33,441 nt of DNA from Rhodothermus sp. Lineage in GTDB: Bacteria > Bacteroidota > Rhodothermia > Rhodothermales > Rhodothermaceae. The stretch is from positions 1 to 33,441 of the forward strand of contig JALSJJ010000011.1 in the NCBI GenBank assembly GCA_026989375.1. Direction: 5' to 3'. The position numbers and the translations under genes were made by a program. Position 1 is the first letter of the stretch; every line of letters begins with the position of its first letter. Of the stretch, positions 26,819 to 33,414 are shown piece after piece. Below the pieces are notes generated by a model, which was not told the origin of the DNA, did not search any database, and worked only from the letters and a program-made list of their open reading frames with translations.

Positions 26819-27714
26819 ACTAAATTATAGCGGTTACCGTTTAGCGTGTCGCTGGCGCAGACGAAAACGACTATGGCATATGCCCGGGCGAGCTGCCTCC
26901 AGATCCTGCCTATGACGCCGGCGTCTTGCATGCTCTGGCTCCATCGAAAAGATATACCAGGAGATTCCGTTCTGGCATCGGCCGTACGACCTGGCTCGAA
27001 GCGCTTCGGAGACTTATCGCGTGGCCTCTGCAAGCAGAACGTCTGGTTGTCGTGGCCCCTTTAGCGTAGCTATCACGCCATGCTGCACTGTTTCGGGCCA
27101 GCATGCATGCGCTTTGTCCATCGAATGGCCAATCACAAAGCGATTCGCTGGCGTCCGATAGCGTAGTGGAAGCATGGTATGCGTGATATAGTGCCAATTC
27201 ACGCATCGCAAATTTTCTGTAACAGAGAGCTAAGATGCAAGCCTGTGGATGGACGGATACGTGCGCTCATAACGAAAGGCTATCACTTCGCTGAGTAAAG
27301 GTGTGGATCCTATCGTAGGGCTGGGATTGAATGCGCGATCCGTTCGCCTTCAGGTGAACATCGCGGGCTCCTGCTACTGGAGGACTGAGGTGCATGCAAA
27401 GGCTCGCCGTTGTGTGTGACCGATTCGTTTGGATACGTAGGGTTACCTATCGTAACGCTCAAGACAGACCGTTCTGAGGTAGCAAAGGGTCACACCTCTT
27501 TTTAAATGGACAGCTTTTGAAGGTTTAGAACAGGAGAGCAGTAGTGGTGGACGCAACTGGCATAGCCTGTGTAACAGAAAAGAGACGGGTTTTTGGCGGG
27601 GCCGTATAAGGCCGAAAGAAAAAATTGTCCGACCATTTAAGATGCCGGACTGACGGTCGATACCTACCCAGAAGCCTGTCAACAGGAAAACCACCAAACA
27701 TCCGTTAACCAAAC

Positions 27715-27720
27715 AGGAGG
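27715..27720 (+). promoter_or_regulatory. Shine-Dalgarno AGGAGG of the pilin-like gene
   Basis: AGGAGG with 6-nt spacer (ctcgtc) before ATG at 27727. Confidence 0.85.
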
Positions 27721-27726
27721 CTCGTC

Positions 27727-28191
27727 ATGGGTCAGCAACAGCTTTTGCTCCTTGTGCTGGGTATGGTGATCGTGGGCATTGCGGTAGTGGCTGGCATCCA
27801 GGCGTTCTCAGAAGGGAAAGCCAAGGCCGACCGTGATGCAGCGGTCAGCGACGCTATGCGGCTGATTTCGGACATCCAGGCTTGGATGTTGAAGCCCAAA
27901 GCCTTTGGAGGGGGCGGCGATTCGGGCGACTGGAGCAACGTGAGTTTTCAGGCGATCGGAATTCCTTCTTCCAGCCTGGATAACAACGGACGCTATCTTA
28001 CCCTCAATGGGTGCTATGCGTTGAGTGGGAATACCACGGCCGCTACGCTGACAATTTATAGCCTTACAACCGACAACAATGGCAATCGCGTCTGTGATGC
28101 CAACACCACCATTGCTACGGTGACAATTGACGGTACGACGCCCGACGATATTGCCTGGAGCTATGCGACTAACAACAATAACAACAATTAA
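27727..28191 (+). CDS. Atypical type IV pilin-like protein
   Basis: MG-QQQLLLLVLGMVIVGIAVVAGIQAF hydrophobic N-terminal helix, two cysteines (C96, C123), Asn-rich C-terminus, followed directly by pilC and pilB homologues. Confidence 0.75.
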   Translation: MGQQQLLLLVLGMVIVGIAVVAGIQAFSEGKAKADRDAAVSDAMRLISDIQAWMLKPKAFGGGGDSGDWSNVSFQAIGIPSSSLDNNGRYLTLNGCYALSGNTTAATLTIYSLTTDNNGNRVCDANTTIATVTIDGTTPDDIAWSYATNNNNNN

Positions 28192-28332: not shown

Positions 28333-29694
28333 ATGCCCGTTCGTGAGTTTCGCTTCAGTGGGGTCAGCGTAAGCGGGGTGCCCGTGCAGGGGACCGTACT
28401 GGCTCCTTCGATGCGGGCAGCCCGTAAAAAGCTGGCCGAGTTAGCTCGGAAGCATAACTTCCGTCCCCAACTCTTGCAACCGCGCCGCACGTTCATCTAC
28501 AAGGTACGGCATCCCAGTGGCAAGGTCATTACCGGGGAACAGAAAGCGTACACGGCCGAGGAGCTGGCCCAGGCCCTGCGCAAGATGGGCCTGGAGGTGA
28601 TCCGCATTGAACGTAAGGTACTCGACCTGCAGCTCAAGCCGCCACGGACAGACATCATCATGTTCGTGCGCCTGGCGGCCAACCTGCTACGCGAAAAGCT
28701 GCCCTTCGATGAAGTCCTGAACCTGCTGGTCAACGACATCTCGTCGAGCTCGCTGCGCCAGGTGATCCGCGATCTGAACGCCGATTTGAAGGCAGGCATG
28801 GAGGCGCAGCAGGCCTTCATGAAGCACCAGCACATCCTGGGCAAATTTACGGCCTACATGCTCGGCCTGGCCTCAAAAAGCGGCAACATGGCCGAGATCT
28901 TTGAATCGACGGCCCGTTTTCTGGAGCGTCAAAATGAGTTTCGCAAGAGCGTCCGCAGTGCAATGATCACCCCGGCTATTACGATCATCGCGCTGGTGGC
29001 CACGTTCATCTGGTACGTGTGGTACATCTTCCCGATGACGGCCGGCCTGCTGGCCGACCTGGGCATGGAATTGCCCCCGATGACGGCAGCGACCATGAAG
29101 TTTTCGCAATGGTTGGATCGCAATATCCTCTGGCTGACGCTCAGTTTTGCAGCGGTCGTGTTGGGGTTTGTAGCGTTTGCTCGCTCAGAAAAAGGGCAGC
29201 TCATCGTCCATCGATGGCTGATCAAGTTACCACTCATAGGAGGGCTATTGCACAAGCTGAACATTGAGATCTTCTGTCGGGTCTTTGCCATCCTGTATTC
29301 TCATAGCGGTGAAAACATCAGCGTGATTAAGATCGCTGCCGAAGCCTGCGGTAATCGCTATATGGAGCATCGAATCAAAACGGTTACGGTGCCGCTGATG
29401 GTGGCGCAGGGGGTGGATCTGGTACGAGCCATGGAAGCCAGTGGCGTCTTTACTCAGATGGCTCTGGCTCGCTTCCGAAGCGGGGCGGAAACGGGGAACG
29501 TGCGAGGGGCTGCCGAGCAAATGGCCAACTATTACGAAAGCGAGACTACCCTGAAATTGAAGGCGGTTGTGGAGGGCATCCAGACGGTCATTGCCATCCT
29601 GATTACGATCGCTATCGCCATCCTGACCATTATTTCCTCTGAAGTGGCCCTGATTCAGCCATCCACGACCGACCTGATGCGCATGGGTGGCTGA
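28333..29694 (+). CDS. pilC: Type IV pilus / type II secretion inner-membrane platform protein (PilC/GspF family)
   Basis: Two T2SSF-like repeats, hydrophobic segments ITPAITIIALVATFIWYVWYIFP and VEGIQTVIAILITIAIAILTIISSEVAL; located between the pilin-like gene and the pilB homologue. Confidence 0.9.
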   Translation: MPVREFRFSGVSVSGVPVQGTVLAPSMRAARKKLAELARKHNFRPQLLQPRRTFIYKVRHPSGKVITGEQKAYTAEELAQALRKMGLEVIRIERKVLDLQLKPPRTDIIMFVRLAANLLREKLPFDEVLNLLVNDISSSSLRQVIRDLNADLKAGMEAQQAFMKHQHILGKFTAYMLGLASKSGNMAEIFESTARFLERQNEFRKSVRSAMITPAITIIALVATFIWYVWYIFPMTAGLLADLGMELPPMTAATMKFSQWLDRNILWLTLSFAAVVLGFVAFARSEKGQLIVHRWLIKLPLIGGLLHKLNIEIFCRVFAILYSHSGENISVIKIAAEACGNRYMEHRIKTVTVPLMVAQGVDLVRAMEASGVFTQMALARFRSGAETGNVRGAAEQMANYYESETTLKLKAVVEGIQTVIAILITIAIAILTIISSEVALIQPSTTDLMRMGG

Positions 29695-29907: not shown

Positions 29908-32900
29908 ATGGGCTGGAGTGATCTGTTCGGGCGCCGCCGTTCGCATCGTGAGTGGAACGAGGAGCTGCGGCGGCTGAAGTTCGGGAAAGCGAGTGCTTCC
30001 GAAACACCATCGCCCGATGCCGCCAGGCAGTCCGAGGCCAACGATAAGAAGGCGCAGGAGGCTGCTTCGGAATCGACCGGCCAGAATACCCCACTGAGCC
30101 ATGAAGACGCGCCACTGACGCAGTTATGGCTGGAGATGGTGGGTGATGGACACGCCAAATCGTTGCCAGCACTGTCCGACGCATCATGGTCGGCTCCACA
30201 GGAAGCGGTAGAAGACACGCAGGCCGCCAGGGAAGCTGATCAGACTGCCGAGCTGGCTGAAGACGTAGCCGCTACCGGAACCGTGTCGGCCCAGCCGCAA
30301 GCGAGTCAGTCCAATGCGTCGTCAGAACAGCCTCCCCACCGTTCGTCATCGTTCCGACCGCAAGCAGAGGCTAACGATTTGCAGCCTGCGGAGCGTGACC
30401 ATAGCCGTGCCCATTCGGGCGCAGGCGATTCCCGGACGGCTATGTTTACTGATGGAGGAGGGATGGCCGAGCTGGCCGAAATGTTTGAAGATGAAGTGGT
30501 CATGGCACTGCTCTATGGAGGGGCTGTGCGTCTGGATCAGATTGCCCGGGCAATCGTCCTGCGTCGCCGCCAGCCTGCACAAGCACTCTGGCGGTGTTTG
30601 CTGGAAGTTCCAGATGTGGACCGCGAGGTCGTGCTGGCCGAAGCGGCCCGCATCGGCGGTGTCGCACCGGCTCCGGTAGATGAAAAACGGCCTTCTGTTG
30701 AATTCATTAAGGCCATTTTGTTACTCTTACCGCCTTCAATGCAGCATGCCCTGTTCGAATGGCAGTTGCTTCCATGTGGATTTGCCCAGGGAGGAAAGGA
30801 CGAAGGGCGCGTACTCCTGCTGGCTACCTGCGATCCCACGCGTTCGGATCTGGAAGCATGGGTGCAGGAGTTGCCCCTGGCAGCCGAGCTCCGGTATGCT
30901 CCGGAACGTATCCTGAAGAAACGACTGGCTGAGCTGGAAAACTTCCGGCCACCTGCCCTGAACATGGATCAGTCGCCGCCTCCTGCGGAAGCTGCCGACA
31001 CCTCGATAGCCGGTACCCCAGAGAAGCAAGATGACGCTGTGGTAAACCAACCGCTTGAGGTGCCGGCGTCGATGGAGAGGCATGCGGCCCATCAACCCGA
31101 CGCAGGTGTCCCTAACGTACCGGAGATATCGGCGGTCGAAGCACCTTCGGACAAAAGCGCGGAAACAGACGAATCCCCAGGTCCAGCAACAACTTCTGGA
31201 TTGCCCGCAACCGAAATCGCGCCGGACAGCCAGTTGGAAGAAGACGAGGCCTCCTACCAGGACGATGAGCCTGAAGCCCCTGAGCCTTCTATTGCTACAG
31301 ACCATGCGATAGATCAGGAAGCAGCCGTTGATTGGTCTTCGGAAAAGCACGCAGTAGACGAACTGCCGACAAAAGCGTGCCTTGATCAGGAAGCCAGCTA
31401 CGCCGATGAGCCCTCATCGGAACCTGAGGCGGAAGCGCATGCTGCAGCCGCATCAGAAACCGCCTTGCCTGAGGTTACGATAGAGACCATAGAGCCGGCG
31501 TCCGAAGTAGCAGGCGGAGACAGAGAAGAGGTAGCAGATACGCCCTCGATCGCCGAAGAAGAAACGGAAGAGACGCCTGCGTCGGTTAAGATTGTCCTGG
31601 ATGATCTACCTGAGCTCAAAACGGCCATTAGTCGTGACCGGGTAGTGAGCCGTTTGCTCGAAAAGGAAGTGGTGGCCCTGCATCAGATCTATCAGGCCTA
31701 TCAGCGACAGCAGGATGAAGGGTTGAAAGAGCCCCTCTGGCGCGTGCTGGCGCAAAGCGATCATGTGCCGCAAGATGCTATTTACGAAGAGGCCGCCCGG
31801 TTGTACGCCTTTCCCATTGCCCGATTGGAGCCGGGCAAGCCCAGTCCCGAATTTGTGCGCTCGGTGATGGACACCTTCGAAGAAGAGGTGCGCGAGCGTC
31901 TGATTGCCCTTCGAGTTGTACCCTTTGAGGTTGACCTGGACGCCCAGACCGGTGCTGTCAAGCTCGTGCTGGTCACCCATGATCCCATGCGGCCCGAAGT
32001 GCACCGTCTGATGCATCGGCTCAAGCTGGAGCGGTTCGAGCTCCAATATGCACCGCAGGGCGTCATTATGCAGGCGTTGCTGGAGGCTTATCCGCGACGC
32101 AACGAATACCTGGAGCGTGTTCAGGAAGAAGAAGCCTATGATCTGGGCACCAGCTACGAGGCTGAGGCCGAACTGATCGACGAGGATGCCTTAGAGGCGG
32201 AGATCAACCGTTCAAAGCTGATCAACCTGTTCGAGGCCACGCTCGTCGAGGCCGTCCACCAGGGCGCCTCCGACATCCACATCTTCCCCAACAATGAAAA
32301 GAAAGTCGAAATCCATTTCCGGATTGATGGACGGCTTACGCGCTGGCACGTTGAGGATAAGGTGCATCCGGAAGCGCTGATCGCCGTCATCAAAGACCAG
32401 GCCATCAATGTGGATCGCTTTGAGCGCGATGCGGCGCAGGACGGTTTCATTCAGCGCTGGATCGACGATCACCTGATCCGCTTCCGCGTCTCCGTGCTAC
32501 CCATTGCCAATGCGCTTGAAGACCTGCGCTCTGAATCGATCGTCATCCGCGTGCTCGACGACCGCAAGGTCATCAAAGACCTGCGGTTGCTGGGCCTGAA
32601 CAAAAAAGCGCTGGAGCGCTTTGAGCGGGCCATCCGCCAACCCTATGGCATGGTGATCGTCACCGGACCCACCGGCTCCGGCAAAAGCACCACGCTCTAT
32701 GCCGCCCTCCACCAGGTCGTCAGTCCTGAGGTGAATGTGCTGACGATCGAAGATCCGGTCGAGTACATCATTCCGGGCGTGCGGCAGATCAAACTCAACC
32801 ACAAGCTGGGCCTGGAAGATGCCCTGCGGGCTATCCTTCGGCACGACCCCGACATCGTGATGGTCGGGGAGATGCGCGATCGGCAGACGGCCGAGCTGGC

Positions 32901-33414
32901 CATCAAGCTGGCCAACACGGGGCATCTGACCTTTTCGACGTTGCACACGAACGATGCGCCCAGTGCGGTCAGTCGGCTCTACAAGATGGGGATTGAGCCG
33001 TTTTTGATTGCCTATGCGATCAACTTGGTCGTGGCCCAGCGCCTGATCCGTAAAGTCTGTCCAGCCTGTAAAGTAGAGGACAAAGATCCGGATTACGTAA
33101 TGCTGCGCAAACTGGGTTTTACGGACGAAGAGATTGCGCGCGCCACCTTTTACAAAGCAGGACGTGATCGGCGCTGTAAGGTCTGCAAAGGGGTTGGCTA
33201 CAAAGGCCGACGGGCGATTGTTGAAGCCATGTACTTTTCGAGAACGATCCGCCACATGATCGTCGAGGCCCAGGGCTCTATCGACGAAGACGCATTGCGC
33301 GAGCAGGCCATCAAGGAAGGCATGCAGACGCTGCGCGATGCCGCCCGCGAAGTCGTACTGGCCGGTGAAACGACCGTTGAAGAAATGATCCGAGTGACGA
33401 CTACTGAAGAGTAA
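29908..33414 (+). CDS. pilB: Type IV pilus assembly / T2SS ATPase (PilB/GspE family) with long N-terminal extension
   Basis: Walker A GPTGSGKSTTLYA, Walker B/Asp box LRHDPDIVMVGEMRD, His box GHLTFSTLHTNDA, tetracysteine CPAC...CKVC. Start at MGWSDLFGRRR preferred to the TTG at 29815. Confidence 0.94.
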   Translation: MGWSDLFGRRRSHREWNEELRRLKFGKASASETPSPDAARQSEANDKKAQEAASESTGQNTPLSHEDAPLTQLWLEMVGDGHAKSLPALSDASWSAPQEAVEDTQAAREADQTAELAEDVAATGTVSAQPQASQSNASSEQPPHRSSSFRPQAEANDLQPAERDHSRAHSGAGDSRTAMFTDGGGMAELAEMFEDEVVMALLYGGAVRLDQIARAIVLRRRQPAQALWRCLLEVPDVDREVVLAEAARIGGVAPAPVDEKRPSVEFIKAILLLLPPSMQHALFEWQLLPCGFAQGGKDEGRVLLLATCDPTRSDLEAWVQELPLAAELRYAPERILKKRLAELENFRPPALNMDQSPPPAEAADTSIAGTPEKQDDAVVNQPLEVPASMERHAAHQPDAGVPNVPEISAVEAPSDKSAETDESPGPATTSGLPATEIAPDSQLEEDEASYQDDEPEAPEPSIATDHAIDQEAAVDWSSEKHAVDELPTKACLDQEASYADEPSSEPEAEAHAAAASETALPEVTIETIEPASEVAGGDREEVADTPSIAEEETEETPASVKIVLDDLPELKTAISRDRVVSRLLEKEVVALHQIYQAYQRQQDEGLKEPLWRVLAQSDHVPQDAIYEEAARLYAFPIARLEPGKPSPEFVRSVMDTFEEEVRERLIALRVVPFEVDLDAQTGAVKLVLVTHDPMRPEVHRLMHRLKLERFELQYAPQGVIMQALLEAYPRRNEYLERVQEEEAYDLGTSYEAEAELIDEDALEAEINRSKLINLFEATLVEAVHQGASDIHIFPNNEKKVEIHFRIDGRLTRWHVEDKVHPEALIAVIKDQAINVDRFERDAAQDGFIQRWIDDHLIRFRVSVLPIANALEDLRSESIVIRVLDDRKVIKDLRLLGLNKKALERFERAIRQPYGMVIVTGPTGSGKSTTLYAALHQVVSPEVNVLTIEDPVEYIIPGVRQIKLNHKLGLEDALRAILRHDPDIVMVGEMRDRQTAELAIKLANTGHLTFSTLHTNDAPSAVSRLYKMGIEPFLIAYAINLVVAQRLIRKVCPACKVEDKDPDYVMLRKLGFTDEEIARATFYKAGRDRRCKVCKGVGYKGRRAIVEAMYFSRTIRHMIVEAQGSIDEDALREQAIKEGMQTLRDAAREVVLAGETTVEEMIRVTTTEE

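Follow-up and report, generated by a model that had tools for sequence, protein, structure and literature searches.

Toward the end of the stretch of Rhodothermus sp. DNA analysed here (33,441 nucleotides, hereafter the window) lies an ORF on the + strand (27727..28191) that encodes a 154-aa protein, annotated as a probable leaderless type IV pilin and probable major subunit from the ORF itself, its homologs, its predicted fold and profile matches to pilins. The N-terminus of the product is MGQQQLLLLVLGMVIVGIAVVAGIQAF, starting MGQQQLLLLV. A ribosome-binding site, AGGAGG (27715..27720, +), stands 6 nt ahead of ATG 27727, and the reading frame upstream of this ATG is open for only 6 codons before a stop, with no ATG, GTG or TTG among them. 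The original prediction, made from the sequence alone, took this ATG for the true start because of the AGGAGG and its 6-nt spacing, with no longer basic leader hidden upstream; that choice holds, and no upstream in-frame start with a canonical leader was found at the window gene. Residues 6-27 (27742..27807, +), which make up the hydrophobic half of the N-terminal helix, are free of K, R, D and E. Two cysteines, Cys96 (codon 28012..28014, +) and Cys123 (codon 28093..28095, +), are possible disulfide partners, and the pair recurs in homologs of other Rhodothermus species and of Roseithermus. The poly-Asn C-terminal tail, which the prediction had pointed out together with the cysteines, is present in the sequence but not conserved. 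The approximately 900 bp 5' of the pilin gene (26819-27726) hold no convincing gene or known RNA family, and a search of the window for Rfam and tRNA features found none.

Downstream of the pilin gene are a pilC-type gene for an inner-membrane platform protein (28333..29694, +; probable start ATG 28333, conserved MPVREFRF; PF00482 E 2e-27; PilC 3jc8 E 1.7e-30) and a pilB-type gene for an assembly ATPase that has a long, acidic extension at its N-terminus and contains an MshEN-like domain (29908..33414, +; probable start ATG 29908; PF00437 E 6.9e-103; MshEN E 3e-4; PilB/GspE models E ~1e-120). The window contig ends just past pilB, and PilT, the secretin and PilM-PilN were therefore read from the operons of sister species. 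There, the operon continues with three membrane proteins (~180, 211 and 380-390 aa), PilT (TIGR01420 E 5e-95), a fusion protein resembling PilM-PilN (PilN match in the C-terminal half, E 3e-7), one more membrane protein and then a PilQ-like secretin. The type IVa machine of PilB, PilC, PilT, secretin and PilM/PilN is accordingly complete, partly by way of sister species. Linkage to pilC and pilB, on which the original prediction leaned, extends across the order: the pilin gene lies ≤3 kb from PilC in 37 of the 39 genomes with both, and the two genes co-occur (Fisher P 1.8e-11), the opposite of what had been named as evidence against the prediction. ComEC (PF03772), sought as a link to DNA uptake, is found in nearly all relatives and is hence uninformative.

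The N-terminal extension of the PilB homolog (window 29908-31900) is about 600 residues long, acidic and of low complexity, and seems to hold two diverged MshEN-like domains, the second alone giving a weak Pfam match; this unusual layout might relate to c-di-GMP control. One genome in two contigs (G058, locus L130) has two intact MGQQQ pilin genes beside a shortened pilB, with pilC not detected, a possible decay of the pilus machine.

Whole-protein searches found homologs of the window pilin in 42 of 60 Rhodothermales genomes, often in 2-6 copies per genome. All homologs listed from these loci start MGQQQLLLLV, except for MGQQQLLLLA in one second copy, and overall identity to the window protein drops to 25-55% among homologs sharing the MGQQQLLLL start. 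A wider scan extended the family to Rhodothermia, relatives of Balneola and Gracilimonas, Ignavibacteria, Melioribacteraceae, Kryptonia and KSB1. With a homolog profile made without the first 11 residues as a guard against circularity, 147 of 148 non-redundant copies begin M-G-Q-Q-Q and one begins M-A-N-K-E, a count slightly biased by the part of the sample that was fetched by the pattern MGQQQLLL, a bias from which the whole-protein-search loci are free. One of the 147 MGQQQ copies uses a TTG start. The preceding in-frame stop is ≤8 codons away in 116 of 146 copies (median 4 codons), and no Lys or Arg occurs within the first 25 residues of any of 96 diverse homologs. Judged from these comparisons, the conservation of the MGQQQ N-terminus is not due to chance, and most copies cannot have a longer hidden leader, since a fixed start codon with stop codons just upstream leaves no room for one. 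Paralogs reach 8 pilin copies per genome. In most relatives outside Rhodothermus (L008, L010, L014, L019 and others) a second, diverged MGQQQ pilin of the FWKTKRDPYNGGNASY type adjoins the first, many of these relatives have further unlinked copies, and one Roseithermus genome (G012, L132) carries a second pilin-pilC-pilB locus with a diverged MGQQQ pilin.

AlphaFold2 predicts for the window protein a continuous helix over residues 3-55 (~53 residues) followed by four strands (pLDDT 86), and for a Melioribacteraceae homolog, modelled with 96 aligned sequences, a helix over residues 2-55 and four strands (pLDDT 92.9). A small profile searched against PDB sequences gave no match, but the deeper 96-sequence profile, run against all PDB chains, gave 8 matches, 7 of them to type IV pilins or pilin-like subunits, with PilE1 the best (E 0.006) and geopilins and Thermus PilA5 among the others. 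Nearly all of these pilin matches share one register, in which profile position 9 mostly falls on mature residue 6. Profile-profile alignment (hhalign) to canonical pilins of the same phylum that sit beside A24 peptidase genes (P 1.7e-5, 93 columns) places residue 8 opposite Glu5. Foldseek ranked PilA first, weakly (E 0.07), for the deeper Melioribacteraceae model and matched no pilin with the window model, all E-values for both models being >0.05, and Pfam and NCBIfam offer no named family for the window pilin. Two marks of a type IV filament subunit in the broad sense are found, namely an N-terminal helix of ~50 residues with a hydrophobic first half and, by the PDB profile and hhalign, sequence similarity to pilins; for a third, a C-terminal antiparallel beta sheet in a pilin fold, there are the four predicted strands and the weak PilA match. 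Evidence for pilin identity is good from sequence profiles and topology and weak from fold libraries, and models and profiles together identify the window protein as a type IV pilin with Leu in the place of Glu5. The fold, which if unrelated to pilins would have counted against a filament or pseudopilus subunit, is instead predicted to be pilin-like, and with the profile matches and the pilC/pilB linkage it supports that earlier idea.

The lack of Glu at +5, also part of the prediction, is borne out under either numbering, as both residue 7 (the naive '+5 after Gly2') and residue 8 (aligned with Glu5 of canonical pilins) are Leu. The 'MG' start proposed there as a minimal leader is real, but Gly2 is probably not the cleavage residue Gly-1, because the profile register has residue 8 opposite Glu5; this would give Gly2 a position of about -2 and leave Gln3 in the place of Gly-1, with the chain starting three residues before the canonical +1. 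'MG leader' is therefore misleading, and 'leaderless' is the better name.

Three companion membrane proteins, m3 (MAQSLFALLA), m4 (MGKAILLAV) and m11 (MWFIFDNLNALIVGG), likewise start straight with a hydrophobic helix after M or M-G/A/S/P, and for most of them the frame upstream is open for ≤8 codons. An acidic residue of m11 falls exactly five positions past the start Met, as if Met stood in for Gly-1. Residue 2 should permit Met removal in most m3, almost always in m4 (Gly2) and in only 5 of 25 m11. PDB searches with m3 and m11 profiles returned nothing useful; by their position and N-terminal helix only, m3, m4 and m11 are probably minor pilins.

Genomes were searched for the A24 prepilin peptidase. 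With PF01478, the genome of the window gave no match at E≤1, and six more Rhodothermus genomes, of which two are assembled into one or two contigs, gave none at E≤0.1; in Rhodothermus, the archaeal-type peptidase PF06847 was not found and no canonical N_methyl pilin was detected. Consistent over seven genomes and two models, these searches strongly indicate, without proving it, that A24 is absent genome-wide in Rhodothermus. The leaderless argument does not rest on this absence alone, because there is no leader on the pilins to be cut off. Of 296 genomes ≥90% complete sampled across the phylum, 101 carry an MGQQQ pilin, and A24 is above cut-off in 11 of these carriers and not detected in 90, the latter an upper estimate of A24-free carriers because the loose first step of the genome search overlooked short, divergent A24 proteins in some Bacteroidia (G139, 27 bits; G264, 25 bits), which surfaced through the regions around their N_methyl pilins and a family-specific profile. 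N_methyl pilins occur in 11/11 carriers with A24 versus 2/90 carriers without. An anti-correlation between A24 and MGQQQ pilins was not seen at the phylum level (P 0.58), because most pilin-free genomes also have no A24, and the informative contrast is consequently that between A24 and canonical pilins. A24 and MGQQQ pilins occur together in 6 of 8 KSB1-like genomes versus 3 of 21 other carriers checked.

A24 clusters were fetched from the A24-positive carriers of the phylum sample and from carriers in the order. Those with enough flank have a leader-bearing pilin (G|FSLTELM and similar) within a few kb, except at one of two A24 loci in one genome (G070, L152), and none of the A24 clusters fetched contains an MGQQQ gene. 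Conversely, a sensitive A24 profile made here found no match in the window and 122 MGQQQ loci (1.53 Mb). Near canonical pilins in Bacteroidia (L168, L171, L172, L173) are short A24 peptidases of ~155-200 aa that are divergent, carry a G-x-GD motif and are missed or barely reached by PF01478. At two further loci, L175 (G220) and L176 (G130), no A24 gene lies within 10 kb of the N_methyl pilins or was detected elsewhere in the genome, which reflects either incomplete assemblies or another unusual case.

A review of type IV filaments defines their subunits by a hydrophilic leader of 6-26 aa ending in Gly-1, by Glu5 and by a dedicated prepilin peptidase (PMC4471445). Against these class III features, the window pilin has ≤2-3 residues before the aligned +1 and Leu for Glu5; the MGQQQ family departs from the definition in leader and Glu5, and probably in peptidase, yet keeps the machine and, by prediction, the fold. 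Type IVa pilins (PilA/PilE, PF07963) share with it the long N-terminal hydrophobic helix, the antiparallel sheet (predicted for the MGQQQ pilin), profile similarity and PilB/PilC linkage, whereas the MGQQQ pilin is without leader, Gly-1/Phe1 and Glu5 and is not recognised by PF07963. The GFSLTELM pilin and A24 clusters of sister Rhodothermales and Balneola (L148, L158) occur in the same phylum, sometimes in the same genome as MGQQQ pilins, and in several genomes have their own PilC/GspF-type platform gene nearby; they differ in having basic leaders, Glu5 and A24, and form a distinct locus with pilins of their own. Archaeal type IV pilins (Pilin_N PF07790, DUF7263) also are often without Glu5 and give weak, sub-threshold matches to the window pilin, but none is significant, and described members have leaders and archaeal prepilin peptidases. 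In Melioribacter roseus, a pilTQBC machine was reported with pilA and pilD missing (PMC3534657). That report did not conclude anything about leaderless pilins; MGQQQ pilins occur in Melioribacteraceae (L071, L099), and a relative of the window pilin is a candidate for the missing pilA. We found no relevant paper on leaderless pilins or peptidase-independent pili in the literature searched, which excluded most subscription journals and preprints.

The best explanation, to which we give a probability of about 0.72, is that the window gene encodes what is probably the major subunit of a type IVa-like pilus, one that is probably retractable and whose pilins are synthesised without a class III leader peptide. 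It is unlikely that the protein is instead a pseudopilin of a type II secretion-like machine, which would be leaderless all the same: the window PilB fits GspE models as well as PilB models, PilC matches GspF with a slightly higher score and a secretin is present, but the operon encodes a PilT-type retraction ATPase, its secretin is closest to PilQ, and the pilin paralogs, up to 8 per genome, suit surface filaments better. We consider it improbable that some other prepilin peptidase, either a divergent or an unrelated one, is encoded elsewhere in the genome and cuts Met-Gly (or Met-Gly-Gln) from the chain, with Gly2 kept as the cleavage residue. Such an enzyme would fit the near invariance of Gly2 and the divergent A24 proteins that do escape genome searches; however, described leaders have 6-26 aa (PMC4471445), the alignment has Gln3 rather than Gly2 at Gly-1, Gly is missing altogether at that place in companions such as m11 (M-W-F-I-F-D), Rhodothermus has no detected leader-bearing pilin, and the 122 operon loci hold no A24. 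With its short N-terminus ahead of a hydrophobic stretch, the N-terminal segment could also be an ordinary signal peptide or a simple anchor on a protein that is no filament subunit, and curated Pfam and NCBIfam families do not recognise the protein; this is very doubtful, as the segment is nearly invariant across phyla, whereas signal peptides vary, forms half of a continuous 53-residue predicted helix and matches pilins by profile, and the gene is linked to pilC.

For a leaderless pilin, the start codon would set the mature N-terminus, with deformylase and methionine aminopeptidase (permitted by Gly2) leaving GQQQLLLL..., and this helix would insert directly, N-in, without a basic leader. 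PilB and PilC would then extrude the pilin subunits, a PilQ-like secretin would give passage through the outer membrane and PilT would pull the pilus back. The prepilin peptidase PilD (A24), seemingly missing from the genome, would not be needed. In m11, where residue 2 is mostly non-permissive, Met may stay on, and the three Gln side chains are a candidate replacement for the contact of Glu5 with the N-terminus. Here we infer filament assembly, Met removal, membrane orientation, a role of the companions as minor pilins and that no other peptidase acts. The original suggestion that the pilin is either not processed or trimmed by aminopeptidases alone remains the best reading, and the undetected A24 and the short-start companions lend it further support. 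On balance, we also favour the broader view that a whole branch of type IV filaments, in Rhodothermia, Balneola relatives, Ignavibacteria and allies, does without leaders and peptidase, with the translation start and Met aminopeptidase setting the N-terminus and no Glu5.

Genome tools look for pilins through the class III leader, which reviews, together with a dedicated prepilin peptidase, treat as conserved in all type IV filament machines. If a common lineage really has neither, then filaments can be assembled without leader cleavage and without Glu5, and genomes such as that of Melioribacter roseus, reported with pilB/pilC/pilT/pilQ but without pilA or pilD, would be accounted for; the lineage would also offer a simple system in which to study the purpose of prepilin processing. 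In a large bacterial group, filament building thus seems to have lost a step that was held to be universal.
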